NCBI GenBank assembly: GCA_015143295.1
Contig: CM026559.1
Location: forward strand, 18,552,826 to 18,616,825
Reading direction: 5' to 3'
Origin: Tetracentron sinense
Taxonomy: Eukaryota > Streptophyta > Magnoliopsida > Trochodendrales > Trochodendraceae
DNA: 64,000 nt
The stretch's first letter is position 1, and each line of letters begins with the position of its first letter. The notes under the pieces were generated by a model. The model was not told the DNA's origin. It saw only the letters and a list, made by a program, of their open reading frames with translations, and did no database searches. Below are positions 1,630-62,059 of the stretch, piece by piece. A program made the translations under genes and the position numbers.

Positions 1630-1823
1630 ACCGATCGCTAGGGATCGATCGGTTCACAACCGATCGCTTGGTCCACAACCGGTCGATCGGTAGCTATCGA
1701 CTGGTTAACTTTTTTGTATGGGAAAATTTTTCAGAGGGCATGTTTTTGACCGAGAGCTCGGTTAAGAACACCGATCGCTCTGTAGGCGACCGATCGCTCG
1801 GTATTTACCACCGATCGATCGGT
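1630..1823 (+). repeat. Palindrome-rich U3 module in sL1
   Basis: Multiple variants of the palindrome ACCGATCGATCGGT (for example at 1810-1823), separated by GGTAGCTATCGAC and TTTTTTGTATGGG and by a CAGAG word. The same succession occurs in the other gypsy LTRs here and, divergently, in the copia LTR. Confidence 0.8.
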
Positions 1824-3487: not shown

Positions 3488-3510
3488 GTTTGTATTGTGC
3501 GCTCAGACTA
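3488..3510. other. pol: 23-bp integrase remnant between two solo LTRs
   Basis: Consists of GTTTG (second target duplication of sL1), 13 bp of the original integrase, and GACTA (first target duplication of sL2). Read on the minus strand, the 13 bp plus the duplications supply the missing SERTIQ codons between 5667 and 1283. This proves that both LTRs are separate insertions. Confidence 0.9.
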
Positions 3511-3807
3511 TGTCGCTACCCAAAACCCACCCTAGAGTTAGAGTGAACTTTGGACGACTAATCATGACTTGCTTGACAAACCATCCTATAAAAACCCACA
3601 AAGCATATACAAAGAGTATATAAACAGCGGAAACATATTCTAACTTAGCACAGCGGAAGACTTAACCAAACCTCTATGTATATACATAAGTGATCCAAGT
3701 TACACAAAAGGAGTCCAAAAGAAAGTGCGGACAGGCCTGCCAAAATACATGGATATACATCTCTCAACTCACCCACAACTCTATCACTCAGAATCTACAA
3801 CCACTAC

Positions 3808-3927
3808 CTAATAGTAGCCCTCTACCGGAGGTTCCTCCAAAGGTTCCTCGACGTACTCCTCCTCCACCCATGGGCCAGGAGCACAGACATCAAAAGGAGC
3901 AGCTGCTCCGCTATCACCTACCGACAT
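3808..3927 (-). CDS. Conserved LTR small ORF, sL2 copy
   Basis: 39 codons starting MSVGDSGAA and containing PWVEEEYVEEPLEEPP, ending YY-TAG. Compared with the other subfamily A copies it keeps the PFDVCAP segment. The start codon follows a conserved GCTCAGCCGTACTTCTT leader. Function unknown. Confidence 0.5.
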   Translation of the reverse strand: MSVGDSGAAAPFDVCAPGPWVEEEYVEEPLEEPPVEGYY

Positions 3928-5314
3928 AAGAAGTACGGCTGAGCATGGAATACTCAGCGGGTACCAAATACTAACTAATAGTCATAGCATAAAAATGGCA
4001 ATCCATAAATCAGGAGCAATTCATATATATTAAACGGGAACAATTCATGTCATACAAGGAAGTAAAGCAATTTATAATCATGCTTGCATTTCGTAAAAGC
4101 TGATAAAACCTCTTGAAATCATTGTGCGCTTGACTTGACATTGAAATATCCTTTTCGTACTTGAAAGCTTGTCATGCTTGTCTTGCTTGATCTTGTCGAG
4201 CGTGTCGTACGTGTCATGCCATGCCATGCGTGCTTGCTTGTGATCATGTAACTTGTGAGATACACTTGTGAGATATCCTTGTGAGATGCGCTTGTGAGAT
4301 GCCTTGAGAGGGAAGGGAGACCCTTCTTCATGATATGTATGTACTTGCGAGGGAAGGGAGGCCCTTCTTTATGCTATGCACTTGTCAGTGAGGGGAGCCC
4401 CTCGTGGCATGTTTGTTCTTGTTTTCTTGTGAAAAGCGAGGTAAAACATATCGTAGGATATGTCCCACCTCTAATCATGTTCTTGAAAATACGATAAATC
4501 ATGTCATGCATGCCGTGCTCATGGAAGTCGTGTGCATACTTGCAATTGAATTTAGATATGACATGTTTGGGGATTTCACAATACATTGCACATCACCATT
4601 TAAACAAGTAACAAATTAAACAATTTAGGGAAAGCGCGAAAAACACACTATTATGACCCAAACAATTTCCATAAACTTTGAGCATGCATTTTCTTAATTT
4701 ATTATTCATTTTATTCACCTTGGCATTCCATCAAACATGGTATGTTCATTATTTGTTAACCCTACAACATGCTCTTCTAGGTGGGTTATAATTCCATCAT
4801 ACATGTTTGTTCATTATGGATACAATGCCCTCCCCATTTCAATTATCACAACACAACCATTGGCATCCCGTCGCCCATTCCATCTCCCTTCACAACATCC
4901 ACACATCCTAACTCATAGCACAAGCATAGATGAAGGAAAACAAAGAAACATGGAGGAAAAGAGGAACTATAACTAGGAGGGTAGCAAGAAGTACCGACCT
5001 TGACAAATGAGGGAAAGAATCCCCTTCCCAAAACGCTCGTGAGGCGCTGCCCTAGCTTGGAACAAGAGCTCCACGAGTTCTTGAGCTTGAATCTTGAAGA
5101 AAATGGGCTTGAGGTTGATCTAAGTCTTCACCGCTTTTGATTTCTTCCCTAAATGGAACCCTAGGTTAGAAATCGTCCTCTCCTCTTTCTCTAACTCTCA
5201 AATGTCTCTAAGTATTATAAATGAGCCCTAAAGACTCAGGCAACCCTTAAGAGTAAAGAGTGAAACGCCAAAAGACCAAAACACCCTTACTGAATTTTCT
5301 GTAAAACACGATAC

Positions 5315-5454
5315 ACCGATCGATCGGTGGTCGATACCGAGCGATCGGTTAAAAATCTACTCTCTGGAACCCCATACAAAAATCTTGACCAATCGATAGC
5401 TACTGATCAATCAGTTTTGGACCGATCGATCACTCCATGGACCGAGCGATCGGT
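5315..5454 (-). repeat. Palindrome-rich U3 module in sL2
   Basis: Begins with a perfect ACCGATCGATCGGT and ends with ACCGAGCGATCGGT. Between them lie ACTCTCTGGAA, CCCATACAAAAAT and CGATAGCTACTGATC, the same ordered words as in the copia LTR module at 26414-26598. Confidence 0.8.
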
Positions 5455-10299: not shown

Positions 10300-12175
10300 G
10301 ACCCAAGGTCACTTAGGGTTATGTCACCCTAACAGAGGTTCCTAACCTCACATTACTTTCTAATTATGGGGTTCAGTTATGAATGTATTCATATTACCAA
10401 GTTATCATTTCAATCATCAATCATGTTTCATTTCGAGTCTTGAGACTCTATGTTTTGGCCACAGCCCACAAAATTTATCTTATAGTCTATAAATCATAAC
10501 CATACCTTGAGCCTTTTAGACATACACACACTGTTCCGGTTTTCACCCGAACATGACCAAACCTTGGGTGTACCAACGCAACTTCCCTGGAATCCGACGA
10601 TTCCATACTGAACCCTGAGTACACCAACTCAGACAAATACACCAACCCTGAGTATACCGACTCAAACCACTTCGTATCTGAAGCTTACACACACAACATG
10701 GGCATTCGCCTAATAAGGACATACTTTTCCATTCAATTAACTGGCCATATCTACCATGTATTTTCCGCCATCGTCCTGGGTATCAGTCAAGAAGGAACCC
10801 CGACCAACCTACCTACCGTCATCTTCTAGCTAGTCTACGGAGGAACCCCGACATCTATACCAATGCCGCCATCTCCTGACATTCCACCAAGAAGGGACCC
10901 AGATAGACACGATGCCGACATCTTCTGACCTACCCAGAGAGGAACCCCGAACTATACACTATCTGATCTTCAGCCACTTTAAACTCCCTAGAACTCCGAC
11001 ATCTCCCGACTATCAGTTACGAAGGAACCACGGGTCATGCAGGACACCGCCACTCCTAACCTAGTCCAAGAGGCACCATGGAATACCTAGGGAAACAGAC
11101 CGACATCTCTTGACTATCAGTCACGAAGGAACCCCGAGCCATACTGGACACCGTCTCTCCTGACCTAGTCAAAGAGGAACCACAGACTATACTTAACCCT
11201 GGTTAGATTTTTTAACCATAGGTTAACCCTAGTTAACCCAAGCCTTTCTGGATTAACTAAAATATTTAGGTCTCGCGCCCGTGAACCAACTCCGGTAACA
11301 CACCGTCCCGTTAGGGAACGATTCCAGGCTAATGGATGTATCCATAGCCTTATACAACTTGTAAAATAACTTTTCGTCACCCTAGAGTGACGCTATAATT
11401 TACCCGGGACCCGATCTAGGCTCCCTGATGGACCACATAAAATCACAACATCACATAGGGGTCTCCAACCCTTTTTCATTCATGCCAAAAGACATGCATA
11501 TACTTCAGATAAAAGAATATAGCAAAATAATGAGAAAAAGAAAAGAAAAGAGGGGTTTTACTTGCTTCATGCTTTTCGAGGAAGCTAGTACAAAAAGGGG
11601 CACCGCTAACACGTCCGAGAGGGCGATCTACCCCAAGATAAAGCTCCTCTGTCTCTAACTTTCACTTTCTCTCTCTACCTTTCTCTCTCTCTCTCTACAT
11701 GCAAATTGAGGCGTCAGGGAAGAAATCAGAGGCCGCCAACGCATCGGGGACGTCGAAAAACCTTATGGGGACCTTCCTTTCCCTTTCTCTCTCTCCTCTT
11801 TCTCTCTCTTCCTTTCTCTCTCCTCACTATCTCTCTCTAAAATGCTGTGTGGCAGGCAGAACTTCCCCCTCTGAATATAGAATGTGAGAAATGGGGGAGG
11901 TTGGCCTCCATTTTATATATAAGGTCATGTGCTATGCACCTAACCTTAATAAATGGTCCCGTTGACCAAGTCAACGGTTTGACCGTTTGACTATTTTTTC
12001 GCCTTTTCTCATGTATCTGGCCTCCGTAGTCCTACTTAATGACATTCGATTCTGACGAAACTTCAAGTGACCGAACTTGGGGTAGTCCGACACCTACTGT
12101 AATAATTTTGAGGAAAAATACTGAGTTTTTACAACTGCACTTGAGTTCGGAAGAAAATTACAAAACCCACTAATT
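10300..12175 (-). repeat. 5' LTR of Gy1 (approximate limits)
   Basis: From 11331 to 12137 it matches the left LTR at 1-800, including the C/T-rich tract (about 11776-11840) and GGTCAACGGTTTGACCGTTT-like words. Sequence beyond 12137 resembles the outer end of the 388-bp LTR-like fragment at 13507-13894, which suggests that the LTR runs to about 12175. The inner boundary is not defined because no primer site was found. Confidence 0.6.
10770..11200. repeat. Degenerate tandem repeat in the Gy1 LTR
   Basis: Roughly 60-90 bp imperfect units that repeat words such as GAGGAACCCCGA, CCGACATCTCCTGAC and GACTATCAGT with strong divergence. There is no ORF. Confidence 0.5.
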
Positions 12176-12414: not shown

Positions 12415-13506
12415 CTAAGGCTTGATCTTTCTAAAATTTCCAATACCACTTTTGTCCAAAAAAAGCAAAGATTTGATCTTGTCTGGAATATTCCTATAAG
12501 AAAGTAAGCAATTAGAAGTCATCATATCACAACCAATATTAGCTAATCCATCAGCCACAGAATTTGCTTCTCGGTATACATGCTTAAAAGAGAAGCTGCC
12601 TCTAAAAAGATGTTTAATCTTCTTATCCCAATACCAATTCTTCCAAGAGAAAGAAATAAGCCCATTCCACCTCTGCACCAGATTTTTGGCGTCGGATTCA
12701 ATGTCTAGATTGTGGATACTCAGGATCTTGCACAAATTCAAACCATCCAGAAGTGCTCGGGCTTCAGCAGTGTTATTGCTGTCAAAACCATAGAAAGAAT
12801 AAAAGCCAGCAACAAAATCTCCATTATGATCTCTGATCACCCCTCCTCCACTAGCAATTCCAGGGTTCCCCCTAGAAGCACCGTCAACATTTAATTTCAT
12901 TCTTCCCCTTGAAGGAAAAATCCACTTAACAAATAAGGAGCGAGAAGGAGAGAGAATAGAATGCCTAATGCCAAAAATAGGAGACAAATCAAGATTTTCC
13001 TTAGGATAATAAGATGCAATGTTCCAAATCCTCCTCTTAATACTGTTCAGAAAAGAATTACTAGATCGACTTTTAGTGTTGTGTTTTCTGCTACACCTCT
13101 CGATCCAAATTTCCCAAACAATCAAAGCCGGCACAAGAAAGAGGAGATCATTTTTCCTATGAGAGGCCGCCCTGTACCATCTTTTAAGACTGCATTTAAT
13201 ATTATCTTGAAAATGAACGGGAATATAACAACAAGCCGAGAAGAACCTCCATACAGGAATAGCAATTTCACTACGGATAAGCAGATGAGAGATATCTTCC
13301 ATTCTAGCATTTTTGCAACAACAGCATTTACTCACCATAGGAATACCCAAACTTTGAATAGCAACATCTGTTGGAATAGCATTATGAAATATTTTCCAGC
13401 AAAAAATCTGAATTTTAGAAGGAATAATGCGATTCCAAATAGCCATGGCCCAATTTTGATTTTGGACACAAAACATGCTGTTGTTTCTTCACATGAGACA
13501 ATTAAC
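12415..13506 (-). pseudogene. LINE ORF2 C-terminal part: zinc-binding and RNase H domains
   Basis: A 353-codon open frame begins at 13476. Its first 130 or so residues match the zinc-binding region found after RT in plant LINEs (WNRIIPSKIQIFCWK, then a Cys-rich CCCCKNARMEDISHLL). RNase H follows, with LNVDGASRGNPG, NTAEARALLDGL, ESDAKNLVQ and VYREANSVADGLA, the D-E-D catalytic pattern of plant LINE RNase H. It ends FRKIKP-stop. The few codons upstream of 13476 are out of frame and then run into the LTR-like insert, so the link to the RT is broken. Confidence 0.88.
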
Positions 13507-19552: not shown

Positions 19553-19722
19553 ACCGAGCGATCGGTGGTTATAACCGATTGATCGGTTGCCTACCGAGCG
19601 ATCGGTGTTTATGACCGATCGACCGGTCAAAAAATCACTCTTTGGAAAATTTCTGACCGTGCGATAGCTACCGATCGATCGGTTATGGACCGATTGATCG
19701 CTGACTGGACCGAGCGATCAGT
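19553..19722 (-). repeat. Palindrome-rich U3 module in the Gy3 3' LTR
   Basis: Variants ACCGAGCGATCGGT, ACCGATTGATCGGT and ACCGATCGATCGGT around an ATCACTCTTTGGAAA and GCGATAGCTACC spine. Confidence 0.8.
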
Positions 19723-23381: not shown

Positions 23382-24175
23382 GTGGCTCAAGGCTTGTCTT
23401 GGTGGGAAACTTGATTGAAGTCCAAAAGGGTAGGGAACAACCTTGCTGCGGAAGACTCGAGTTGGGGAAGAAACCCCCTTTTAATAAACGACGTGAGATG
23501 GCTGCACCTAAAACTGAGAGTGGATCCAACACGGCTTGAGCCTTGAACTTGAAGCAAAGCAGTTTGAGGACGACCTAGGATGGTCACCCCTTTTGATTTC
23601 CTCCTCAATACCAAACCTAGGTTTTAGAGCTTTCTCTTTTCTCTCTCTACTCTCAAAATACCTCAATGTCGTAAGTGAGGCCTCAAAGGGTCGAGGCAAA
23701 ACCCTATGGTAAGGGTTAACACCCAAAGCATGAAAACGCCTTACTGAAATTTATGCAAAAACGCGGAAAGACCGACGCGACTCGGTTGGTTATGACCGAT
23801 CGATCGTTGCCTAGAGCGATTCGGTTGTGTTTATGAGAATCGACCGGTCAAAAAACTCACTCTCTGGAAACTTCTCCACCTATACAAAATTTCTGACCGT
23901 GCGATAGCTACCGATCGATCGGTTATGGACCGATCGATCGCTGACTGGACCGAGCGATCGGTGCTCTTTATGTCTAGACTGTTTTAACCATATCTTTTGA
24001 CTCGCTCGTCGGATTTTGACGATTCAACTTGCGTTGGGTTCGTCTTTCGAAAACACACATTTCTGACGTTTCGGAATTTCCGATTTCTCTCTTATTTATT
24101 AATTAGACTATGAGGAAGGCCAATTAGCTACGAAATGCCTATTCATTTAAAGATGGAAAAGTCTGGGGTGCTACA
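23382..24175 (-). repeat. 5' LTR of Gy3, outer part
   Basis: Matches the corresponding part of 17578-19934, ending GGGGTGCTACA at 24175. It has small indels and scrambled bases close to the gap (for example inside 23771-23830), which may be low-quality sequence. It contains the palindrome module 23771-23962. Confidence 0.85.
23771..23962 (-). repeat. Palindrome-rich U3 module in the Gy3 5' LTR
   Basis: Copy of 19553-19722 with perturbed palindromes in its first third and intact ACCGATCGATCGGT later. Contains CACTCTCTGGAAA and CCTATACAAAAT words. Confidence 0.75.
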
Positions 24176-25681: not shown

Positions 25682-26901
25682 TGAAATTTATCCAAATCAA
25701 TGATCTCTAAGACCTAGAGGGGGGTGAATAGGTCTATCTAATAATTTCTAACCAATTTTAATTTTTCAATTAATATGTTTAGAAATCAATGAACAATTCA
25801 CTCAAACAATCCACACAAATCAAACACAGAAGATTTTTACGTGGAAAACCCTAACGGGAAAAAACCACTGGATCTCGTCCAGCAATAAACTTCACTATGA
25901 AAAGATTTTAAGTACAAGACAAGACCTTACCAAAACAGAAACGACGTTCCTAGGTATAGAATCTTACTCTTGATTTCCACGAACCAGCAGGTTCGATCTC
26001 CGTCGTAGCAGCTTTTGTTCCACACCGACCAAATCTTCTCAAGCTACTTCAAAACCACGATCACACACGATCGATCTCCTTCCACGAAGGCTCTGGATCA
26101 AACACCGGACACACACACAAGGTGTAGGGTTGTGAATCAATTTTGGAAGTTTCAAATCCTAGAGGGATCTCATATAGATCTGAGATCACACAATGCAAGA
26201 TCAAAGGTTTAGATCTATACTTGCATTCTCTAGGATCAAAGAAAGAGGAGGGATCAACAAAGATCTAATAAGAACAATAGGAAAAACCCTGGAGGAGTTT
26301 CTCAGACCTCTACTCTTTCAATAATAAACAAAGATACGAATTAGGTCTCCAAAAAGTTGTTTATATAGGGTTTAAAAAAAGAATCCAGAAAAATAAAAAT
26401 TCTTTTTACGGGGACCGATCGATCGGTGCACATTACTGATCGCTCGGTCCAAAACGGATCGATCGGTGCTCATAACCAATCGAGCGGTTGAAAATCATCT
26501 CTCTGGAAAAATACCCCATACAAATTATTTGTCCAGTCGATAGCCACCGATCGCTCGGTAGGCCACCGATCGATCGGTCTCAACACCGAGCGATCGGTTA
26601 AGACAGAATTTGTTTCAAACCATACTTCATTTCATGTTTATTTGATTCAACTAAGATCAAACAACTTTATTCGGTTTAAAACTATCCTCCTAGGTATGTT
26701 TAGAGTTATCTAAGTCAAATCCAACCTAGGTAGGGGTCTCTAAGTCAATTACCTTCTAGATCCAGAGTAGGAGCTTTTTCTTCACTTTCTTCAATCTTCT
26801 TGATGCTTTAGCTCTTCTCTTCTGACAAGTTGAACACAACTCGACTCACATGACCTATCTAATGATCACGGAATTGGCCAACACCTACTTAGGGATTTAC
26901 A
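25682..26901 (-). repeat. 3' LTR of Cop1
   Basis: 1220 bp, minus strand TGTAAATCCCTAAGTAGG to GGATAAATTTCA. TATA box CTATATAAAC on the minus strand near 26360-26368, directly downstream of the palindrome module. Confidence 0.93.
26414..26598 (-). repeat. Palindrome-rich U3 module in the copia 3' LTR
   Basis: ACCGATCGATCGGT and variants around TCTCTCTGGAAAAATACC, CATACAAATT and GTCGATAGCCACC, the same order and orientation relative to the element as in gypsy LTRs. Confidence 0.85.
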
Positions 26902-27492: not shown

Positions 27493-28743
27493 TCACTCCT
27501 GCTCATCATCAGAAGTGAGCTGGGACTCATAATAAGTTCGAAAGTCATGAACATCTCTCTGTACGCCCAGCACTGCTGCATCCAGTGATCCAAGTCTGCC
27601 ACGGATCTCTGTGGTGAAGTCCTGGTGAGATGAAATATGCGTTGAGAGATCCATCTGCATCTCTCTCATCATTCTGGCTAGATCATCAATCGTGGCCAGA
27701 GGTGCATGAGAGGATCCTGTACCAAAATCAGCTTCTTCCTCAATATCTCGAACTGAAGCATGAGAGAAACTCTGAGCGATGGTCTTTTTGTTGATTGGAC
27801 CTTTCGGAGTACGGGTAGGAACTCCAGGAGGAGCAATAATTCCTTGAGAACCAAGGAGTTTAGTAATCAGGGATCCAAAGGGAAGAGCTCCAACCACAGT
27901 TTGAGTTTGATGGGCTTGAATCATCAAATCAATTATGTGGGCTGCAAGGTCAATATCATGTCCACGAAGGAGACTGAATAAAAATCGAGCTCTATCTTCC
28001 CTAAGGTCTGCAGTATGAACCTTTGGGTGGATATTTGCACTCATTACTAGGTTTACAAGTCTGGCATCCCTAGTGAGTTTTCTGACTTCGATTAAGGAAC
28101 CAACCCAAAGTGTAGGAGCACCACAAAGAAATGTGACTACATTGTTCATAGATTCTTTATCCTCATCTTTCTTGTATTTATAAGGATAATAGGCATCTGG
28201 AACTCGAGGACAACCAAGAAATTTTGCAATGACATTTGGATTTATCAAAACTGATTGTTGTAAAGATCGAGATTTAAAAGACCAGGATTTGAAATTTATT
28301 TCAGAGAAATTTGAGTAAAATTCCTGGACTAACTGAATAGGAGCAGGACCGGATAAATTGAGAAGACCTTCCCAGTGACGATCAGTAATGATTTTAGAAA
28401 GGTAGTAATCACCAAAATCTGAAATTCTAATGCTCCTTTCAACCATAATACCCTTTTTACTAAAATACTCACTATAAATTTGAGCAGCATTAGGGCTAAT
28501 GAAAGGACCCAATAGAACAGTTGAAGATGAACTAGCTTTTCCCTTTTTTTTCCGGGTTTTATCTGCCAAAGACTTTTGGCAATTTTCAGTAGTAGAATCC
28601 ACCATTCTACGAATTGGTCGATCCCCTATTGAAATCCCATGTCCTATAGGAGTGAAGGAAAAGGGCTCTTAGTTTTGTTCATCTTCAGGAGAGTCCTCTT
28701 GGTTGTTGAGGACCAATTTTCGACGTTTGGGAACGCCAGACAT
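27493..28743 (-). pseudogene. Cop1 third ORF (env-position protein)
   Basis: Starts ATG 28743 (MSGVPKRRKLVLNN), with one in-frame TAA at 28669-28671, then 370 open codons from 28605. Contains ISPNAAQIYSEYFSKKGI, KFLGCPRVPDAYYP and a region of the kind annotated as putative plant transposon protein. The C-terminal 90 residues are acidic and Met/Gln-rich and could form a coiled coil. No signal peptide or clear membrane span is visible, so an envelope function is not supported. SIRE/Maximus elements often have an additional ORF at this place. Confidence 0.7.
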
Positions 28744-28995: not shown

Positions 28996-29030
28996 ACCGA
29001 TCGATCGGTCTTTAACACCGAGCGATCGGT
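28996..29030 (-). repeat. Isolated palindrome pair inside Cop1
   Basis: ACCGATCGATCGGT and ACCGAGCGATCGGT 7 bp apart, outside any LTR and upstream of the third ORF. Confidence 0.8.
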
Positions 29031-30206: not shown

Positions 30207-33200
30207 TTACTCAACTCCGCACAAAACTATGGATTTCCTAAGGAGTTCAAACCTAAGGGAATCTAAGGGTTTTGTAAGAATGTCCGCAAATTGATTCTCT
30301 GTTTGGACATACTCTATAGACATAATCTTTTGCTCAACAAGATCACGGATGAAGTGATGTCTAATGTCTATGTGTTTTGTGCGAGAATGTTGAACGGGAT
30401 TTTTGGAAATATTGATAGCACTTGAATTATCACAATACACAGTCATAGTGCTTTGTTCAATCCCGTAATCTTTCAACATCTACTTCATCCACAGAAGTTG
30501 AGTGCAACAACTGCCAGCTGCTATGTACTCAGCTTCTGCAGTGAACAATGAAATTGAATTCTGCTTTTTGCTAAGCCAAGCAACTAAGCCGTTTCCAATA
30601 TAGAAACATCCTCCAGAGGTGCTCTTCCTATCATCAGCATTTTCGGCCCAATCGGTATTGGAATATCCAACTATCGTGGCATTTGTATCAAAAGAATACA
30701 AGAGGCCAAATGATAGAGTTCCACTCACATATCGAATGATACGCTTAACTGCAAGCAAGTGAGACTCTTTTGGGCTCGCTTGATAGCGGGCACATGCACC
30801 AACACTAAAGGCTATGTCAGGTCTAGTAGCAGTTAGGTACAGTAAACTACCAATCATGCTTCTATAAGAAGTTTGATCAATATCTTTGCCTGAAGCATCT
30901 TTACCAAGTTTTGTAGTAGAACTCATAGGAGTCCTTACATGCTTTGTAGAGCTCATGCCAAATTTCTTCACTAGATTTTTAGCATATTTGATTTGAGATA
31001 CTAAGATCCCAGAATCCAATTGCTTGATCTGAAGACCAAGGAAGAAACTTAGCTCACCAACCATGCTCATTTCAAATTCATTTTTCATTTGTTCAGCAAA
31101 TGAAAGAGCATGTAAGTCTAATGTGGAACCAAACACTATGTCATCAACATATATCTGGGCGATGACAATATCACCTTTCACATTCTTTATGAAAAGGGTT
31201 CTGTCTACTCCCCCTCTCGAAAATCCATTTTCCAAGAGATAAGTAGTCAGTCTCTCATACCAAGCTCTTGGAGCTTGTTTTAAACCATAGAGAGCCCTTT
31301 TTAACCGATAGACTTGATCAAGGTGATGTGGATCTTCAAACCCTTTTGGTTGTTCCACATAGACTTCCTCCTGAAGAATGCCATTCAGAAAGGCACTCTT
31401 AACATCCATTTGAAAAGGTTTGAATTTCATATGGCAAGCCACAGCTAGAAGAATTCTTATTGATTCTAGCCTGGCTACAGGAGTAAAGGTTTCATCGAAG
31501 TCAATACCTTCAATTTGGGTGTATCCTTGTGCAACTAACCTAGCCTTATTTCTTATGATAGTACCTTTTCATCAGATTTGTTCTTGAAAATCCATTTGGT
31601 ACCAATCACATTTGTATTGTTAGGCCTAGGTACTAAATACCAAACATCATTCCTAGTAAACTGAAGTAACTCTTCTTGCATAGCATTTATCCAATTATCA
31701 TCTGCAAGAGCTTCAGCTACATTCTTGGGTTCAAAAGATGAAGTATAGCAAATGTAGCTAACTTCATTTTCAATTTGTTTCCTCGTTCTCACTCCACTTT
31801 CAAGATCACCAATTATATCAGTGGGGGTGTGAGGACTCATGACCCTAGAATGTGTAGGTTTTGATGGAGATGATTGCTTATTTATAGGTGGAGTTGAAAC
31901 AGTTTCAACATTTTCATATTCAGCACTTTCATCATCCTCAAGTTGCACATTTTCAACACCGGAGTCATCCACAACTACATTTATGGACTCTATAATCGTA
32001 GAGGTTCTCAAGTTATACACTCGATAAGCTCTACTGTTGGAGGAATATCCAAGAAATATCCCTTCATCACTCCGGGATTCAAATTTGCCCAGTTGCTCTC
32101 TATCCTTAAGGATATAGCATTTACTTCCGAATTCTCGAAAGTACTTGACACTGGGTTTCTTGTTAGTCCACAACTCATATGGGGTTTTCCTTGTTCCAGG
32201 TCTTACAAAAACTCTATTAACTATATAGCAAGCAGTGTTAACTGCCTCAGCCCAGAAATGAGAAGCTAGATTATTGCTATGAAGCATAACTCTAGCCATT
32301 TCTTGGAGAACCCTGTTCTTCCTCTCTACTACACCATTTTGCTGAGGTGTAATAGGTGCAAAAAATTCATGTTTGATACCCGACTCATCACAAAAGTCGT
32401 TGTACTTGGAGTTTTCAAACTCCTTTCCATGATCACTACGAATTCGAGTGATTGGGCATCTTTTCTCATTTTGAATTTTCAAGCAAATACTTTTGAAATT
32501 GTCAAAAGCATCGGATTTCTCTCTTATAAATGCCACCCATGACATTCTTGAGAAATCATCAACCATGACTAGGATGTATCGCTTTCCACCTAGGCTTTCA
32601 GTTCTTGTAGGACCCATTAGATCCATATGAATTAATTCCAGTGGATATGAAGTAGCAATACTTGAAGTCTTCTTATGTGGGGTTCTAATTTGTTTACCAA
32701 TTTGGCATGGCCCACACACAGCAGTAGAAGGCTTTCCTAGTTTGGGAACACCTCTTACAAGTTCTTGCTTAGAGATTTTACATAGGTCTTTGAAGTTCAT
32801 GTGACCTAGTCTTCGGTGCCACAAATCAACCTCCTCAATCTTAGTCTTATAACAGACATTTGAGGGATTAGGACTGGGAATTAAGCCGTAGCAATTGTCA
32901 GTGGTTCTTAACCCTTCTAGAACACACTTACCTTTACCATTAATGACTAAGCATTTATTTTGGGTAAAGTGCACAGCATGGTTATCATCACATAGTTGAC
33001 TTATGCTAATTAAATTAGCTTTCAGTCCTTCAACAAACAAGGCATCTTTCAATTTTGGTATGCCTGGTGAATCGATGATACCCTTCCCCTTTACTAAAGA
33101 CTTGCTTTCATCACCAAAAGTAACAGTTCCATCTGGACAGTCCTCAAATTGAGTAAATAAGGACTTGTTACCTGTCATATGCCGAGAACACCCACTGTTG

Positions 33201-33219
33201 AAGTACCACATTTCTATGT
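30207..33219 (-). pseudogene. pol: Cop1 pol: protease, integrase, RT, RNase H
   Basis: Copia order. Protease: WYFNSGCSRHMTG, where the catalytic Asp of DSG is Asn. Integrase: HRRLGHMNF ... CGPCQIGKQ zinc region, core MDLMGP, VDDFSRMSW, and PQQNGVVERKN with the catalytic Glu. Then GYSSNSRAYRV and the linker to RT. At about 31559 a one-base loss shifts the frame. RT continues [21 protein letters not shown] with the YVDD box, and RNase H contains [10 protein letters not shown]. One TAG at 30480-30482 after LLWMK is in frame with the rest (DYGIEQSTMTVYCDNSSA ... KHIDIRHHF). Clearly a SIRE-like Ty1/copia pol. Confidence 0.92.
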
Positions 33220-35521
33220 TTTGGGCTTTCAAGGCAGTGTGAATGACGAAGCACTTCAGGTCATCCTTTCTTACATACACAGTCTTTAAACTTTGTTTAG
33301 ATCTTTGATCATTAAACTGTGTATTAGAAACCTTTTTCCTTTTTTTCCTCCTTGACCTTTTCTTATTTTGTTCAGTTCTAGCTTTTTGATTAGTCAAATT
33401 CTTTCCTCTTGAATAATCATTTGGAATAAATTGACCAGTTCTTGTCATAGAGATTTGAGCAATTCTATTAATAAATTCGCTCAATATTCTAGACTTTTCA
33501 GCCAGAACCTGAATCTGCCTTTGAAGAGTCCCTTGACTTTGATTTTGGTTCCATGAACCATTTTGAGGAGCTCTCCTAAAAGCATTACAATTTGGTCGAA
33601 TGTGACCTCTCACACCACAGAAGTGACATGTGGGTATGAATCTTTGGAGAGGAGAAGGATTTCTTCTAAAACGAATTTGATTCCTCATAGCATTCACTCT
33701 AGGAGCTGTATTTCTAGGCTTTACAAAATTTGTATAAGCCTTAGTACTTGATGTAGAAGGTAGATTCACTTTAGGATCAGAATGTATTGGCTCAAACACT
33801 GCACTAGCCATTGTACCAACAGCTAAAGGACCAGCTGGTGTGTCAGCATGTCCTATCCCAGATCTACTCGAATTTGACCCATACTTTCTAACTAATTCAT
33901 CTAGGCAGCTAGTGTTACCAAACATTCTTACTTCTTTTTCAAGAGTATAGACCTTCTGAATCAAGTCAGTCTTGTCTTTAAGGGTAATTTGATGTTCTTT
34001 TTCAAGAAATTTCACCTTATCAACAAGAGAGTCTTTAAAAGTTTCCAGCTCCATTTGTAGAGTTCTTAACTCTTCAATTTCTTTCATGGAAGTGTCTCTT
34101 TCAACTTCTAATTTTCTGACCACTTTAGTCAATGAGACATTCTCTTCCAAAAGACATTGAACTTTCATAACAAATGCTTCTTTTTCATTTTCCAACTGAC
34201 TAACTAGAGCACTCTTCTCTTCTGCTACTAGTTTACAAGTATCTCTTTCATTTTGAATGATTTTGAGTTTTTTGCTCAAGGAGATTTTTGTTTTAGTCAG
34301 CTTCAAACTTTCAGCATACAACTTATCATAAGTTGTTTTCAAATCTTCATCACTTTCAGAGTCAGTTTGACTCTTCTGTATGTCATCACTAGACTCAGTA
34401 TGAACACTCTCATCACTTCTATCCTTTTCATCAACCGCAGAGGTAGTCTCAAGAATCCCAGAAAGGGAAACAGTGAAAGCCGTATGATTTCCACTATCTT
34501 CACTTGAAGAGGAACTGTCCGATTCTTCATTCTCGGAATCACTGTCATCCCAACAGGCATTCATCACCTTGCCCTTACTCTTCTTCTTGTTAGGGCAGTT
34601 AGGTGAAATATGACCGAAGCCATGGCATTCATAACATTGAATACCTTGGGATTTCTTGTCGCCACTTTTGGAATTTTTCTTGTTTTTCCAGGGCTTAGAC
34701 TTTGACTTCTCAAAAGATTTTCCTCCCTGTTTGGGATTGAACCTCTTTTTCGTTCTAAAAAATTTTCAAAATTTTTTAACGAAGAGAGCCATTTCTTCCT
34801 CATTCATATCTCCATCACTGTCATCCTCATCCAAAGATTCCTTGATGGATTTCAAGGCTAAAGATTTGTTCTTCTTGGATGGACGGAGATTGAGTTCATA
34901 GGTTTGGAGTGAACCAACCAATTCCTCAATCTTCAGAGAGTCAACATTTTTACTCTCTTCGATTGCAGTGACTTTGGGTTGAAATCTCTCAGGGAGAGAT
35001 CTAAGGACTTTTCTAACTATTTTGGATTCAGATATTTTCTCACCTAAATTGAAACTAGCGCTGACAATGTCACTAAGTTATGCATAGAATTCATCAAAAG
35101 TGTCATTGTCATCCATGTTTAAATGTTCAAATTTGGTGGTTAACATTTGGAGTTTTGAGATTTTAACAGTGGTAGTACCCTCATGGGTAATTTCAAGAAT
35201 GTCCTAAGCCTCCTTTGCTGTTTCACATGAAGAAATTCGTCTGAATTCCTCAGCAGTGACTGCAGTAAAGATAGCATTGAGACCTTTAGTGTTCCATCCA
35301 CTTGACTCAAGCTCTTCTCTGGTCCATTCATTATAATATTTGACGACAGTCAAATCACCTACAGTTTTTATGGGCGTAGTCCACCCATTCTGTATAGACA
35401 TCCAAATTCTCTCGTCAATAGATTTGAGAAAGGCTCTCATTCTAGCTTTCCAGTATGCATAATTATTTCCATCAAAAAGTGGGGGACGAGAGACGGATCT
35501 ACCTTCTCTTAGAGTACTCAT
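33220..35521 (-). pseudogene. gag: Cop1 gag with coiled coil and two zinc knuckles
   Basis: Starts at ATG 35521 (MSTLREGRSVSRPPLFDG), then NYAYWKARMRAFLKS, a copia gag N-terminus. Stops near 35205, 35077 and 34776 interrupt one frame. First zinc knuckle CYECHGFGHISPNC, then an acidic Ser-rich stretch, about 150 residues of heptad-rich coiled coil (KLKIIQNERDTCK through KEVRMFG), and a second knuckle CHFCGVRGHIRPNC. The frame runs on into protease without a break, as in copia elements. Long coiled-coil gag is typical of SIRE/Maximus elements. Confidence 0.85.
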
Positions 35522-35588: not shown

Positions 35589-36810
35589 TGAAATTTATCC
35601 AAATCAATGATCTCTAAGACCTAGAGGGGGGGTGAATAGGTCTATCTAATAATTTCTAACCAATTTTAATTTTTCAATTAATATGTTTAGAAATCAATGA
35701 ATAATTCACTCAGACAATCCACACAAATCAAACACAGAAGATTTTTACGTGGAAAACCCTAACGGGAAAAAACCACGAGACCTCGTCCAGCAATAAACTT
35801 CACTATGAAAAGATTTTAAGTACAAGACAAGACCTTACCAAAACAGAAACGACGTTCCTAGGTATAGACTCTTACTCTTGATTTCCACGAACCAGCAGGT
35901 TCGATCTCCGCCGTAGCAGCTTCGGTTCCACACCGACCAAATCTTCTCAAGCTACTTCAAAACCATGATCACACACGATCGATCTCCTTCCACGAAGGCT
36001 CCAGATCAAACACCGGACACACACACAAGGTGTAGGGTTGTGAATCAATTTTGGAAGTTTCAAACCCTAGAGGGATCTTATATAGATCTGAGATCACACA
36101 ATGCAAGATCAAAGGTTTAGATCTATACTTGCATTCTCTAGGATCAAAGAAAGATGAGGGATCAACAAAGATCTAATAAGAACAATAGGAAAAACCCTAG
36201 AGGAATTTCTCAGACCTCTACTCTTTCAATAATAAATAAAGATACGAATTAGGTCTCCAAAAATTTGTTTATATAGGGTTTAAAAAAAGAATCCAGAAAA
36301 ATAAAAATTCTTTTTACGGGGACCGATCGATCGGTGCACATTACCGATCACTCGGTCCAAAATGGATCGATCGGTGCTCATAACCGATCGAGCGGTTGAA
36401 AATCATCTCTCTAGAAAAATACCCCTTACAAATTATTTGTCCAGTCGATAGCCACCGATTGCTCGGTAGGCCACCGATCGATCGGTCTCAACACCGAGCG
36501 ATCGGTTGAGACAGAATTTGTTTCAAACCATACTTCATTTCATATTTATTTGATTCAACTAAGATCAAACAACTTTATTAGGTTTAAAACTATCCTCCTA
36601 GGTATGTTTAGAGTTATCTAAGTCAAATCCAACCTAGGTAGGGGTCTCTAAGTCAATTACCTTTCTAGATCCAGAGTAGGAGCTTTTTCTTCACTTTCTT
36701 CAATCTTCTTGATGCTTTAGCTCTTCTCTTCTGACAAGTTGAACACGACTCGACTCACATGACCTATCTAATGATCACAGAATTTGCCAACACCTACTTA
36801 GGGATTTACA
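35589..36810 (-). repeat. 5' LTR of Cop1
   Basis: 1222 bp, near-identical to 25682-26901. TATA box on the minus strand at 36268-36276 lies about 45 bp downstream of the palindrome module, so the module sits in the core promoter-proximal U3. Confidence 0.93.
36322..36506 (-). repeat. Palindrome-rich U3 module in the copia 5' LTR
   Basis: Copy of 26414-26598 with a few point changes; ACCGATCGATCGGT at its left end. Confidence 0.85.
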
Positions 36811-37126
36811 CTTTGAAATCTCCAAATTCTATGAAATGAGAAGTTTTAAAGAACTTAAGGGTTAAGAAGTGGGATTCCTAAGTCGGATATGTTAAAAATC
36901 TGGTTTGCTGAACTCCATTGGTGGATCAATCAACTTTGAGGACAATTGGGTCCATAAATAAAGATGAAATTGGAAATTCTAAAACCCTAAAAATGTTCCT
37001 TTTTGAATGACGAGTCCAACGCAAGTTGAATCGTCAAAATGCGACAAAAGAGTCAAAAGTTATGGCCAAAACACGGAAATAGGAAAAATGAGAAAAATCA
37101 GCAAAATAAACAAAACACAAACCAAC

Positions 37127-37279
37127 TAGTCGACCGCTCCCAAGACCAATCGACCGGTAGCCTATCGCTCGACTGCTAAGATGATGGATCGACCGCTCGC
37201 CTACCGGTCGACCGCTGTCGCACTAATTTTGGATGGGAGATTTTTCCAAAGAGGGTCTTTTGGACCAATCAACCGCTCC
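37127..37279 (+). repeat. Variant palindrome module in LTR1
   Basis: Same position as in other gypsy LTRs but built on GGTCGACCGCT, AGTCGACCGCT and GATCGACCGCT instead of CGATCGATCG. The spacer words TTTTGGATGGGAGATTTTTC and CAAAGAGGG correspond to TTTTGTATGGG and CAGAG of the others. Confidence 0.7.
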
Positions 37280-38686
37280 TTTACAAATTTGCCTGATTTG
37301 GTCTTTTTAAGCAGATCATTAAGGGTATGATGGTCTTTAAGCATCCCCTTTTCTTTATAAACCCAATTTCGGGGTTAAGTATTTCTAAAACCCTCAAACG
37401 TGCATTTTGGAAGGATGAGAAAGAAGAGAAGGGAAAGCTACGGTTTTCCTCAAGAGAGTTTGAGATTGAAGGGTGAAGCTCAACAAAAGCTTGGATTTTC
37501 ACTTCAAACAAGGATCTTCCCTATTTCAAGCTTGGGATCTTTTCTTCAAGAGGGATCACCTCTATTGATTTGAGGAGCTTCAATTAAGGGTTTCTTCTCT
37601 TTTCAAGGTCGGTACCTTATGCTACCCTCCTAGTTCATATCCTCCATTTTTCTTCCCTTCTTTATTGTCTTTCCTAAAGTATGAACCTAATAGTAGATGA
37701 ATGGTTGTGTGAGAATGGATGTTGGGCGAAGGATGCCATGTGTATGGGATGTGATGAATGAAATGGGAAGGGTATTGTACCAATAATAAACACACATGTA
37801 TGTTGTGAATATAAACCCACCTAGAAAAGTAAGGTGTAGGCTTTAACAAATAATGTACACGCCACATGTTTGATGAAATGCCAAGGTGAAGAAAATGAGT
37901 TGTAAATCAAGAAATGCATGCTTAAACGCTTATGGAATTGCTAGGGTTTATCATAGTGTGATAAAGTGCTTTCTCTAAATGGCATGAATATTTTCTTGTT
38001 GAAATTTATGGTATTCTATGTGTTGTTGAAATCCCAAATGTTATATTTAATTTCAAGTGAAAGCATGTACATGATTTCACGAGCACGGCATGCATGACAT
38101 GATTTACTGGTGTTTTCAAGAATAAGGTTTTAGAGGTGGGACATATCTTACGATTTGTTTTGCCTCACTTTTGATAAGAGGACAAGAACAAGTATTGCAT
38201 AGGAGGGAGTTTACACTTCCCTCCCTTCCAAGAGGGGTCTCCCCTCACTCACAAGTGCATATCATCGAAAGAAGGGTCTCCCTTCCCTCTCAAGTGCATG
38301 TAATTGAAAAAGGGTCTCCCTTCCCTCTCAAGTGCATGTAATTGAAAAAGGGTCTCCCTTCCCTCCCAAGTGCATCTCACAAGTTACATGAGCAGGTTTA
38401 AATTCCAAGCAAGCACACATGATACGCATGACATGAAACGCTCGACAAGATCAAGCAAGATAGACATAACAAGTTTTTCACGAAAAGAGTACTTTCAGGT
38501 CAAGTCAAGTGCATGATGATTTCAAGAGATTTATCGGCTTTTATGTGATGCAAGCATGAATATAAAATGTTTTACTTTCTTGTTATAATATGGATTGCTT
38601 CTTGCTTTATATATCGTTATTCTCATACTGTGACTATTGGTTAGCATTTGGTACACGCTGAGATTTCCATGCTCAGCCGTACTTTT

Positions 38687-43444: not shown

Positions 43445-43656
43445 TGTAGAGCCCCAGACTTTTTCATGCTTAATGCATGGCTTTTTAGTAGCCAATTTGC
43501 CTTTAATATAGTACAATTAATAAATAAAAAGAAATTGAAAATTCTGAAAGGTTAGAAATGTTCCTTTTCGAAGTATGAATCCAACGCAAGTTGAATCGTC
43601 AAAATCCAACGAACGGGTCAAAAGATATGGCCAAAACAGTTTGGACTTGCAGACCA

Positions 43657-43820
43657 CCGATCGATCGGTCCAAAACCGATCGATCGGAGGCTATCGACGG
43701 GTGCACTTTTTTGTATGGGGAAATTTTCCAGAGAGCATTTTTTTGACCGATCGCCCGGTCAAGAACACCGATCGCTTGGTAGGCAACCGATCGATAGGTC
43801 ATAACCACCGATCGCTAGGT
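43657..43820 (+). repeat. Palindrome-rich U3 module in LTR2
   Basis: Two near-perfect ACCGATCGATCGG palindromes then GAGGCTATCGACGG, TTTTTTGTATGGGGAAATTT and CAGAG, then ACCGATCGCTTGGT-type repeats. Confidence 0.85.
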
Positions 43821-44087
43821 CTTCGTGTTTTTGCAGAGTTTCATTAAGGGCATTTTCGGCATTTGGGTGTTATACCCTTGCTTATCAAGGTTTGCCCGAG
43901 CCTTTAGGGCTCATTCCCAACACTTAGAGTATTTTGAGAGCTCGAGGAAGAGGAGAAGGAGATTCTAACCTAGGGTTTGCATATTTACATTCCCAAGCTC
44001 GTTTTCCTTCAAGATCAAGATTCAAGCTCGTGAGGAGCACATTTCCTAAGCTAGGGCAGTAACTCACGCACGTTTTGGAAGGGGATT

Positions 44088-45598
44088 TGATATTCGCTTA
44101 AAAGTGTTTGTTTTTCACGATTTTCCTTTTAGCATTATCGCACTCTTTTACGTAAAACTTGCATTTTTACAAACTTTTATACGTAAGAGTTCCCTCCATT
44201 GCATAACACACACATTTCTGGTAAAAATGGTATATTTGCATAGTTTAAACACATTTCTGAAAGTCTAGATACTGAGCCATTTCAATAAACTCTCATTACG
44301 TGTTTTAAGTGTCTCAGGAACCCTAACTGGATGATTTTCAAGGACCGGAGGCCGTAGTTAAGCATCAAAGCCCATTACTGAAGACTAAAGAGCCAACAGA
44401 CTATACCAAGTAGATGCAGGCCAAGTATGGGCTAAGCCAAGAGATCACAATTACATAATGAGGCCTAGGGAGCTGAAGAGTCGATTTCCAAAAAGAGGAC
44501 TTGAGTAATAAAGATCACTATACAAGACAAAGGAGAAAAGCTTGCTTAGTTGGTGAAATCTATGGGAGTCTGTGTTAGAGACCAGGGTTCAAAAGCCTCT
44601 GCCATCATTTTCTCTTCTTTTTTTCTTTTATTTCTCAAAATCCTAATCTCTCTCTCCTAATCCTATTCGTCCAACCTTAATCATCTTAGCCGTCCATCCT
44701 TACTTTTCAAAACCCTAGTTAGTTCAAAAACCCTAATCCCATCTCTTTTTCCTAAACCTAGCCACCACCTTCTAGTAAATCCTAGCCACCCATCTCATTT
44801 TCTTTCAAAAATCTAATCCCCTTCCATTTCTTACTTTCTTTCCTAATTTCTCTCCGATCCTAACAACTCACTTTTCAAAAGTGAAACCCTAATTTCTCTT
44901 TTTCTCTACGAAATCCTAGCCGTCCATCCCATCACACCCTCTTTCTCTCCAAACCCTAACTATGATCCTATATAACCTACACCATCTCTTCCTCTAAAAA
45001 ATGGTTCCTTCCCCCTAACTTCTCTTCTCATCTCTCTCTCATTTCTCAACCCCTTTTCTCTCTTCTCTCTCACTTACGGATCTTTTGTTCTCTCTCTATC
45101 TCTTGGTATATCTCCATCTTTGGTGACTCTTGCAAAGGAAGGAGAAAAAGCAAGAAAGTAAAGAAGAAAGCTCTCCATCTCACCATTTTTACAGCTTTAC
45201 TTTCGAATGCTCTTGCAATTTCTTTGTCTTCAAGTGTTGTAAGTACTTTTTAATTTAATGAATCATTCTAAATAAATGTTAGTTTTTTTTTCTTATGTTT
45301 AATTATGTTTTATGCTTGTTTCATGGATAGTGGTAGACCTGAATAATTTCTCAAACAAAAGTGTTTTTAAAAAAATCCCATTATTCCATCATTCTCACCA
45401 CTCCACCATTTTAATCTTTTCTTTATTTTATTATTTTTATTATTTTATTTTCTTTATTGCACTAACTAACTAACCCCGAGTGAGGATTCGACATCCGACA
45501 CAAGCCCTATACCATTCTCATATGTATGCAGGATTCGGATTAAATTAAAGTATTGAAATAGGGTGATTTGTTTCAACGACCAAAAAACCCTACTTTCA
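44088..45598 (+). repeat. 5' LTR of Ath1
   Basis: 1511 bp, TGATATTCGC to CCTACTTTCA. C/T-rich central region. It lacks about 36 bp of CT-rich sequence present in the 3' LTR. Confidence 0.92.
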
Positions 45599-48562: not shown

Positions 48563-50597
48563 GAACGATCTTATCGACCCTGTCTATGAAGACTGATGAC
48601 TCACTCAGTCTCCGTGTTTCCAACTTGTTTGGGGGTGCATTTATGTACCCCTTTTGTGTCTGGCTGAAGACGTTAAACTTATCGCTGTCGAAAAGGCAAT
48701 TCCGAGATTCATGAGTTGCATGATTATCTTGCATATATTTTGGCACTATTTTTCAGGTTGTACGGTTCTCATTACTTTTGCAGATACCTACCAGTGTACA
48801 ATTTCTGCCAAGCTGGTAATACCCTTCCTCAACTTTTGCATCTTGTAGTCCAAAGTCATATCTTTTTGTCTCGGTCATAAGCACCGAGGACGGTGCTATC
48901 TTTTGTTTGGGGGTGGTATTTTCCAAAACTCATGTTTTCCCTTTGAAAAAAAAAACAAAAAAAAAAGTTTTCTTTTGCTAACTCTTTGGAGCTTTAGAGA
49001 CTGTGAAAGCTTCCGGCCTGTCCCGTAGGCCACCTAGGAGGTAGAACTCTGGGTTTTGCGGGTAGGATATATAGGCTTATTTTCTTTTTATTAAAAAAAA
49101 AAAAAAGAAAAAAAAAAGAGAGTTTTTCTAATACTTTCAAAAATGTTTTCAAGTAACTTTACAATGATGAGACCAAAACTAACCGTTAGTCTACTTATTG
49201 AAAGGGATGTCATCTTTTGAAATACAAGTTAGCACTTAGTTAAGTACTACTTTGGATTGAGATGCTTAGAAAATTCAGATTCGGCACAAAATTGCACAAA
49301 ATCAACATCAGAGTCATCCTAAGTTCAGATTCTCTAGAGATCCTAGAAGAATATTTGTGGAGACCTAACCCAGTAAGCTTTAGAGCATTTCATCATTTCA
49401 GAGGGTTATACAAATAAAATTTCCCGAGTCACAAGTTGACTCACAAGTTCTTCCAGCCAACACATATTCCTTTGATAGATCTCATTAATTCTTGATTTGA
49501 TCATTAAACTCAGAACGACATCAAACATTGGGTCATTACAAAAGAACTTTCTCTGTATCCATTCAAGACATTAGACATGCTAGTGCAACCCTAGAAAATG
49601 ATATAGGCCATGTTGGTAACCTTTCAGACTTTTTAGCTTACCTAACTTTTACATCTGTAGAAAACCCTTTTGAGCCTTTAATGAGAACCTTTTCTTGTCA
49701 ACCCATTAACCGAAAACCCAATCTAGATAAGAAATATGACTTGCGACCCTATTTCTGAGAAGGATAAAAGAGTAAGTGGTATGGGTACACCATGAAAGAT
49801 AGAAATCAAGAAGGAAAGAAAAACCAAGTGAGTTCGAACTGAAAAGAAAATATGGAAAGCTGAAAAACAATATTGAGCAATCTCAAAAAGATCAAAAAAT
49901 GAAAGAAGAAAAAGAAAAAGGAACTGGTGTTACTCCCTCAGGAAAAATTGTAAAAAATATTGAGATATCCTCTCAGAACTTTGAATCCCTGTGTCCCTTT
50001 TTTTTTCTAAACCAATCCCAAGCTTCAATACAACCTAGTAAAGTCCTACTTGATTTTGGGTTAGCACAATCATAGGATGTGGAGAATGGAGAAAGAGAAA
50101 CTATAGAGTTTGATCTAACGTTCCGAGTGACATGATATTCCTATCATGAGATCTTATTTTCTAATGTCCTCCTTTCTAGACAATATATGTGATATTTGCC
50201 TATTTTCATCAATATATCTCTTCACATATAATTTGAGAGAAAAGAAATAAAACCATTTCCAAGTGATTCACTTCTGAGTGGTATACAAGTGAGAATTGAG
50301 GTCAAGACATATAATCTTAGAGGTGATCTGAAAATCTCTACTGCCGGATAATGATGATATTGATCACACACACACGCGGAAGCTGACTTTTCTTGTGTTG
50401 AGTGTCCATCTGTATTCTTGCTGAAACTTACTAACTGAGCTCTAATTTTTAAATATTTTGTTACATCCTTGAAATAATTTGACAAACGGAGTTTTCTCTG
50501 AGTAATGAGAAACAGTGTGTAGCATGTGTCAAACCCTTTCAAGCTCCATTTTTTCGCACTAATTGCCAAGGACTGGCAATATGCTGGTTGGGGGTTG
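48563..50597 (+). other. Ath1 3' non-coding region and polypurine tract
   Basis: Contains GGACGGTGC and TTTGTTTGGGGGTGG, words common in the 3' region of Athila elements, poly(A) runs at 48945-48966 and 49094-49120, and a 76-codon frame at 49528-49758 of unknown meaning. Ends with the G-rich GGTTGGGGGTTG (50586-50597) before the 3' LTR. Confidence 0.7.
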
Positions 50598-58362: not shown

Positions 58363-58596
58363 CAAGCTGTAGAGCCCCGGACCTTTTTCACATTTAATGC
58401 ATGACACTTTCGTTGCCATTTTGCCTTTAAAGAGGTATAATTAATAAATAAGGAATAAATTGGAAATTTTGAAATGTCAGAAATGTTCCTTTTCGAAGTA
58501 CGAACCCAACGCAAGTTGAATCGTCAAAATCGGACGAACGAGTCAAAAGATATGGCCAAAACAGTCTGGACCTACAGGCAATTGGTAGCTCAGAAG

Positions 58597-58877
58597 GCAC
58601 TAAGGACGTAGCTCGGTTATGCGCTAAGGACGTAGCTCGGTTATGCACTAAGGACGTAGCTCGGTTATGCACTAAGGATGTAGCTCGGTTATGCGCTAAG
58701 GACGTAGTTCGGTTATGCACTAAGGACGTAACTCGGTTATGCACTAAGGACGTAGCTCGGAAGGCACTAAGGACGTAGCTCGGTTATGCACTAAGGACGT
58801 AGCTCGGAAGGCACTAAGGACGTAGCTCGGTTATGCACTAAGGACGTAGCTCAGAAGGTACTAAGGACGTAGCTCGG
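58597..58877 (+). repeat. 23-24 bp tandem array in sL3
   Basis: Twelve copies of CTAAGGACGTAGCTCGG followed by TTATGC or AAGGC, so units alternate between 24 and 23 bp. No intervening unique sequence. Confidence 0.95.
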
Positions 58878-59054
58878 ACAACGTGCTCTGATAAGGCACA
58901 GACAACGTACTCTGATAACGTAGCTCTAGCTCTGATAACGTATACGTTGTGCATCCGTTGTGCAATAGACAACGGGTACGTTGTGCAGCAAACAGCGTGT
59001 ACGTTGTACAGCTCACGATGGGCACGTTATGCATAAGACAACGGGCAACAAGCT

Positions 59055-59233
59055 CAGCACAACGTGTTCGGCACTATTCACAGCACAACGTGTTTGGCAC
59101 TATTCACTGCACAACGTGTTTGGCACTATTCACAGCACAACGTGTTCGGCACTATTCACAGCACAACATGTTCGGCACTATTCACAACACAACGTGTTTG
59201 GCACTATTCACAGCTCAACGTGTTCGGCACTCA
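59055..59233 (+). repeat. 26-bp tandem array in sL3
   Basis: Seven copies of a unit with CACAACGTGTTCGGCACTAT, some with TTTGGCAC. Between the two arrays (58878-59054) are further ACGTTGTGCA-like words. Confidence 0.95.
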
Positions 59234-61873: not shown

Positions 61874-62059
61874 CACCAATTGCTCGGTCCATGGAGCGAT
61901 CGATCGGTCCAAAACCGATCGATCGGAAGCTATCAACGGGTGCACTTTTTTGTATGGAAAAATTTTCCATAGAGCATGTTTTTGACCGATCGCCTGATCA
62001 CGAACACCGATTGCTCGGTAGGCAACTGATCGATTGGTCATAACCACCGATCGCTCGGT
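61874..62059 (+). repeat. Palindrome-rich U3 module in LTR3
   Basis: Same layout as in LTR2 (GATCGATCGGTCCAAAACCG, AAGCTATCAACGG, TTTTTTGTATGGA) with one extra palindrome-like unit at the start. Confidence 0.85.

Follow-up and report, generated by a model that had tools for sequence, protein, structure and literature searches.

A palindromic module with a shared spine is common to copia and gypsy LTRs

Results

Nested LTR retrotransposons in a 64-kb window

The stretch of DNA analyzed here (the window) spans 64 kb with 40.7% GC in a 1.16-Gb genome of 1479 contigs whose element types are those of a plant, and it consists of nested LTR retrotransposons, the main features of which are collected in Table 1. 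Cop1, a Sirevirus-like copia element, is inserted within a gypsy-type LTR and carries LTRs of 1.2 kb each, with 97.2% identity between the 5' and 3' LTR (K2P 0.0268). An earlier note on this DNA had named as LTRs the intervals 26414-26598 and 36322-36506 in Cop1, together with a series of gypsy intervals; all of these are modules lying within longer LTRs. On the minus strand, Cop1 pol encodes rve and SH3 within 31553-34567 and RVT_2 within 30480-31442, thus placing integrase before reverse transcriptase in the Ty1/copia order expected of a Sirevirus. Its terminal PPT reads AAAGGGGGAG-AT-TG at the start of the 3' LTR and has the AT/TG junction of Sireviruses, with one extra PPT-like site upstream at 27246. 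The PBS region reads CA-TTTGG-TATGAAAGC and, as counted by eye, has seven of the nine bases of the Sirevirus PBS TATCAGAGC, which is expected after CA/ATTGG. PolyC runs (CCCCCC and CCCCCCC) are found at 25724 and 35632, close to the LTR ends at 25682 and 35589, and both this signal and the PPT with its AT/TG junction match the Sirevirus descriptions in the available part of PMC2829016.

Six gypsy copies belong to a single LTR lineage, with flank identities of 72-94%. The gypsy copy at 20-23 kb, on the minus strand, encodes RVT_1 and RT_RNaseH followed by Integrase_H2C2, which is the chromovirus order; the gypsy Chromo domain scores of 23.6 and 21.2 bits fall below the Pfam cut-off of 25.1, and SH3_Tf2-1 lies above its own. 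We refer to these elements as chromovirus-like, presumably of the Del/Tekay type. The window also contains several repeats of other kinds. Direct repeats at 44081-45596 and 50590-52142 (97% identity, ~6.5 kb apart) perhaps delimit a non-autonomous LTR element; no Pfam domain between them exceeded the cut-off in the frames tried, and palindromic boxes are absent. A second pair of direct repeats lies ~11 kb apart at 1-801 and 11330-12137 (90% identity), a large imperfect inverted repeat at 2815-4205 aligns with its reverse complement at 79% identity for ~1.4 kb, and an ORF at 12415-13476 with RNase H-like (RVT_3) and zf-RVT domains is LINE-like.

Table 1. Coordinates of elements, modules and associated features in the window
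Feature	Position	Strand	Remarks
Cop1 3' LTR, Sirevirus-like copia	25682..26901	-	Self-blast; TG..CA ends; duplication CTTTG
Cop1 5' LTR	35589..36810	-	Self-blast; TG..CA ends; duplication CTTTG
Cop1 gag-pre-integrase, integrase, RVT_2 reverse transcriptase	30480..34567	-	Copia order; two ORFs
Cop1 ORF in env position	27496..28668	-	Pfam PF20167
Module, Cop1 3' LTR	26414..26598	-	Three boxes, spine (26489-26545), four boxes
Module, Cop1 5' LTR	36322..36506	-	
TATA box, Cop1 3' LTR	26362..26367	-	5' LTR equivalent at 36275
Box pair, Cop1 internal region	28996..29030	-	Ahead of TATA-like site 28979 and env-position ORF
Module, gypsy LTR g1630	1630..1823	+	
Module, gypsy LTR g5315	5315..5454	-	Two of the last boxes absent
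Module, gypsy LTR g19553	19553..19722	-	15-bp spine deletion
Module, gypsy LTR g23771	23771..23962	-	Decayed
Module, gypsy LTR g43657	43656..43820	+	First box absent
Module, gypsy LTR g61874	61875..62059	+	
Diverged gypsy-type LTR	37123..37290	+	Spine recognisable; other box type
Module slot, gypsy LTR starting 58368	58579..59228	+	Unrelated tandem arrays, 24/23/26 bp units

Architecture of the module

The module is 185 bp long and, in both LTR types, consists in sense order of three palindromic boxes, a 57-bp spine and four further boxes; in the Cop1 LTR it occupies positions 304-488 of 1220 (sense). The box reads ACCGATCGATCGGT, i.e., CCG..CGG, and ACCGATC and ACCGAGC account for 52 and 17, respectively, of 112 box halves. 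Over the whole window, 10 exact palindromes and 56 with up to three mismatches were counted, compared with means of 0 and 0.8 in 20 first-order Markov sequences. CpG observed/expected reaches 1.59-1.85 in the three modules measured, versus 0.32-1.23 in the LTR flanks and 0.61 in the window. The Cop1 box intervals (20-19-71-21-19-21) recur in all six positions in g61874, while the last five are also present both in g43657 and in g1630, where the first is 19 instead of 20; g19553 has 56 in place of 71, and in g5315 and g23771 the series is incomplete or decayed. The spine words listed in the earlier note proved to be tendencies, since the exact sense forms GGT[A/G]GCTATCG, TTTGTATG and TTTCCAGAG occur in five, five and three of the eight modules. 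Its description of the placement was borne out: orientation relative to transcription is identical in all eight modules, and the Cop1 module lies just upstream of the TATA box, which starts 47 nt beyond it in both LTRs. In the 150 nt downstream of the six gypsy modules of the window, a single TATA-like match was found, 64 nt after the module of g1630; the other five copies have none. The internal box pair of Cop1 matches boxes 1-2 of its LTR at 94% identity across 35 bp, and at the corresponding site a diverged copy (L140) retains one box and the TATA. The earlier note lists neither this pair nor the diverged LTR around 37123-37290 nor the gypsy LTR at 58368 with its different array. In Sireviruses, boxes ahead of the env ORF were taken in PMC2829016 as support for an internal promoter, with none identified there according to the part available.

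Module RNA is predicted to fold better than all 200 of 200 shuffles (z -5.4 and -3.2), which makes a structural role of that RNA possible. The palindromes might then work as RNA or single-strand structure, in packaging, dimerisation or small-RNA hairpins, rather than as protein-binding DNA, and maize Sirevirus palindrome clusters do have mapped small RNAs (PMC10760457 and PMC5311732, in the parts available). However, Cop1 and gypsy modules are predicted to fold with different boxes paired, any two boxes would be able to pair so that exact spacing should be unneeded, and the placement before the TATA, in the element interior as well, is that of a promoter part. We regard RNA structure as an improbable basis for the module.

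Homology between the superfamilies

We compared the modules of the two superfamilies by their boxes, spines and spacers separately. With the boxes removed, the spine of the Cop1 3' LTR aligned to the six gypsy spines with global z values of 5.1-8.9, and none of 2000 dinucleotide shuffles reached the score in any of the six, although the g5315 "spine" in this test still extended over a box. The more decayed spine of the Cop1 5' LTR gave z values of 4.2-7.6, with some shuffle exceeding one of the six global scores (g19553) and three of the six local scores (g19553, g23771, and g61874). Because the spine opens with sequence similar to a degenerate box, the remaining, non-palindromic part was tested alone; for the Cop1 3' LTR, its score was reached by only 0-2 of 5000 shuffles in six of seven comparisons, the other being g19553 (272 of 5000), whose deletion lies there. 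Thus, the account in which only the 14-bp palindrome is shared and the spine similarity is due to chance, which had been set beforehand as the outcome that would speak against the proposal, is rejected by the shuffle tests, and the claim of a palindrome plus an ordered spine common to copia and gypsy LTRs holds, more strongly than first described, both in the spine and in the equal spacing of the boxes.

Conservation differed sharply between the parts of the module. Aligned identity between Cop1 and the six gypsy copies was 0.83 in boxes, 0.70 in the spine and 0.28 in spacers, compared with 0.81, 0.77 and 0.71 for gypsy against gypsy. In fixed register, Cop1 and g61874 share 81/98 positions in boxes, 37/57 in the spine and 8/30 in spacers, the last being at shuffle level (p 0.23), while the spacers of Cop1 and g1630 agree at 11/30 (p 0.036). 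Among copies in exact register, a comparison that excluded 12 of the 35 modules, two of them from Cop elements, 20 gypsy copies matched three Cop modules at 0.74-0.78 in boxes, 0.66-0.72 in the spine and 0.28-0.35 in spacers, versus 0.81, 0.79 and 0.66 for gypsy against gypsy. The conserved parts are likely, on this comparison of sequences, to be those with a function. From this pattern we infer that purifying selection acts in the copying lineage. Once inserted, copies lose their boxes by decay, five of the seven differences between the two Cop1 LTR modules falling in boxes.

The similarity also ends sharply at the module edges, as the earlier note had predicted. In whole-LTR blastn, the principal matches to gypsy sequence in the window fall within 304-489 of the Cop1 LTR, and the Cop1 flanks alone gave no match at the corresponding gypsy place, the one 21-bp match (E 0.039) being to a gypsy LTR out of line. 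Elsewhere in the genome, the window Cop1 LTR matched all 24 gypsy loci sampled, solely within 302-493; matches of three diverged Cop1-type loci extended at most 21 bp past the module, except for two of the 24 in the case of L140, where the longest match was to other sequence. The proposed transfer of a regulatory module between superfamilies is therefore upheld as regards the sharing itself (spine, spacing, edges, and 24 of 24 loci), but with spacers near chance between the superfamilies this sharing looks old, and a recent transfer is not favored. Given such an age, the sharp edges may in part show how far selective retention reached, and not where a recent transfer ended.

The near-chance spacers could also be expected from convergence, in which each superfamily, without any transfer, acquired similar boxes and spacing through selection by the same host factor. 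At least one other site (L145, see below) has boxes but no spine, which would fit such a history, as would a box near 37203 in the diverged LTR that contains CGGTCGACCG, the box listed for a Vitis Sirevirus in the available part of PMC2829016. Convergence does not, however, lead one to expect a shared non-palindromic spine, nor the agreement of all six intervals, including the 71 across the spine. Convergence is thus hard to hold, and we consider it quite improbable.

Occurrence in the genome

The 1.16-Gb genome contains 30,033 perfect copies of the palindrome, versus three of the reversed pattern used as a control, and the box-spine junction ATCGGTNGCTATCG has 4,335 + 4,511 copies (control, 4 + 1). 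Among the first 100 junctions listed, 74 were of the A type and 26 of the G type; G is the type of Cop1, and g43657-like copies may also have it. Neighbors of the same strand and type within 13 kb, among the junctions listed, were 9.5-10 kb apart in seven of eight G pairs (Cop1, 9.9 kb) and 7.3-7.6 kb apart in six of ten A pairs, as expected if full elements of two kinds are present. We grouped the first 50 exact palindromes among the matches listed (both strands) into 29 clusters, which lie at the start of one contig and are not a random sample. These comprise 24 gypsy-type LTRs, most of them assigned by LTR backbone rather than coding sequence, three Cop1-type LTRs, one Cop1 internal box and a single cluster (L145) having boxes without the spine or a known backbone. 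Spine-less boxes at L188 (3001-3100) match neither LTR backbone and perhaps represent a third family with the motif. Using the Cop1 post-module flank, 40 of 1602 candidates were scored, and all of the 30 copies fetched carry the module, 24 of them in exact spacing; being the closest copies, they are uninformative on relatives without the module.

These clusters also bear upon the idea that the module is itself a small mobile element (MITE- or foldback-like) inserted in both LTR types. Its ends are indeed inverted repeats, owing to the palindromes, but no target duplication was seen by eye at the module edges in either Cop1 or gypsy, and none of the 29 clusters is a free-standing copy, comprising as they do 27 in the two LTR types, one Cop1 internal and one spine-less pair. 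This idea is already weak and has only a very slight chance of being correct.

An exchanged slot in a gypsy LTR

In the gypsy LTR starting at 58368, the flanks of the slot are 80-90% (left) and 76-84% (right) identical to those of module-bearing LTRs, apart from short matches to the diverged copy at 37 kb, whereas the slot itself has no alignment of more than 15 bp to any module. The 24-bp unit that helps to fill it has 1,037 + 1,020 = 2,057 exact matches genome-wide (control, 0), with some pairs ~7.4-8.0 kb apart. The broader proposition that gypsy LTRs are mosaics broken at the slot was only partly supported, and this LTR is its sole unambiguous example. One grouping was rejected by the right-flank tree (AU p 0.008), a second only weakly (0.04), and in the left-flank tree the alternative is not rejected (p 0.22). 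TGCAGA or a near form flanks the slot on both sides in several gypsy LTRs (e.g., 43645-43655 and 43830-43840) and is perhaps a microhomology.

Discussion

Homology in the spine, matching geometry and common edges leave the sharing of the module between copia and gypsy LTRs well supported. In our judgment, it is probably best explained as an upstream promoter array that was shared once, long ago, between gypsy and copia LTRs and has been retained for transcription. The boxes, with half-sites ACCGATC or ACCGAGC spaced about two helical turns apart in groups of three and four, would be sites for a putative dimeric host factor and the spine a putative site of a second factor, both jointly activating the TATA promoter downstream; a host factor common to both LTR types is plausible. 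Copies losing the boxes, spine or spacing would be transcribed, and hence copied, less, and the box pair ahead of the internal TATA would play an equivalent part for the env-position ORF. That sites and distances are kept while spacer sequence is not counts in favor of a promoter array, although spacer lengths could also have been kept by chance, indels being rarer than substitutions. The L145 cluster, with boxes but no spine, speaks against this explanation, as do the five gypsy copies of the window that lack a TATA match downstream and the predicted folding of module RNA.

A single ancient exchange would have joined chromovirus-like gypsy and Sirevirus-like copia LTR lineages, most likely through reverse transcriptase switching between co-packaged RNAs. 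In the module tree, the Cop modules form one clade (100/100), as a single transfer would produce, among gypsy modules; its position is weakly supported and the midpoint root falls inside gypsy. The root leans toward gypsy as the donor, while the usual presence of boxes in Sireviruses leans toward copia. The move might instead have occurred at the DNA level, by ectopic gene conversion or by nested insertion followed by loss, and the element types are in fact nested here, with Cop1 inside a gypsy-type LTR. On the other hand, the module is in both Cop1 LTRs and in all 30 of the close copies fetched, so a DNA-level event would need a source copy that later spread. The data are compatible with both routes, and we regard the DNA-level one as unlikely, though it merits consideration.

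A wider picture, which we hold to be somewhat less likely than not, extends this account. Plant LTRs may have a socket upstream of the TATA into which different promoter cassettes can be fitted. The cassette of palindromes and spine would have crossed the copia-gypsy border once, long ago, and its base-pair-exact geometry would have been kept in both lineages because they depend on a single host factor; a different gypsy lineage would have taken up an unrelated cassette in its place and still spread. If so, elements of different superfamilies share and compete for regulatory parts.

Retrotransposon superfamilies are usually handled as separate lineages, and here this promoter module is common to two of them, suggesting that switches can pass between unrelated elements and then be kept because they function. 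The module resembles a natural footprinting experiment, with sites and spacing kept and the intervening sequence randomised, and indicates which bases a plant host factor may need, making that factor findable. A shared module would also explain a possible joint activation of unrelated families in one genome.

Our literature search, which was not exhaustive and in part covered only portions of papers, recognised no report of copia and gypsy LTRs sharing a homologous module, and the palindrome sequence led to a single bacterial paper, which is unrelated. A search of public viral contigs revealed no Cop1 RT relative, and the viral-contig stretches with the 15-base junction pattern (at least 120) were set aside as chance matches, since none matched the module (blastn, E 1e-3).

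Template switching between co-packaged LTR-retrotransposon RNAs, as described in PMC1950507, resembles the route proposed here in that reverse transcriptase switching yields chimeric LTRs; unlike our case, the complexes in the available part of that paper are copia (Angela-like, Opie), without exchange with gypsy. In maize, two unrelated element types have the same palindromic motif as the most frequent one in their structured regions (PMC10760457), but these are copia and Helitrons rather than copia and gypsy, only the motif is involved, and the part available mentions neither a spine nor conserved spacing. The Del LTRs of PMC4029996 are chromovirus LTRs with a CpG-rich 5' stretch (a 5' CpG island) that is more variable in length and sequence than the remainder. 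That paper cites the Sirevirus boxes, yet "palindrom" is absent from its main text, and it reports, as far as available, no copia LTR homology or array exchange.

Also among the closest known systems are the RM boxes of Sirevirus LTRs, which are palindromic and lie upstream of the TATA and ahead of the env-like ORF (PMC2829016, as far as available). With seven boxes in the LTR and two internal ones, Cop1 has the at least eight copies, the location in the upper LTR half, the TATA soon after and the boxes before env that define them. It lacks the CGG-CCG signature, its box being CCG..CGG, and so we term its boxes RM-like; Tnd-1 also departs from that signature according to the same source. Palindromic boxes upstream of the TATA are already known in Sireviruses; what is new, as far as our literature search showed, is the presence of a homologous module together with its spine within gypsy LTRs. 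RM boxes have been called Sirevirus-specific relative to other Ty1/copia elements in the part of PMC2829016 available, whereas here the boxes, together with a non-palindromic spine, are also found in gypsy LTRs.
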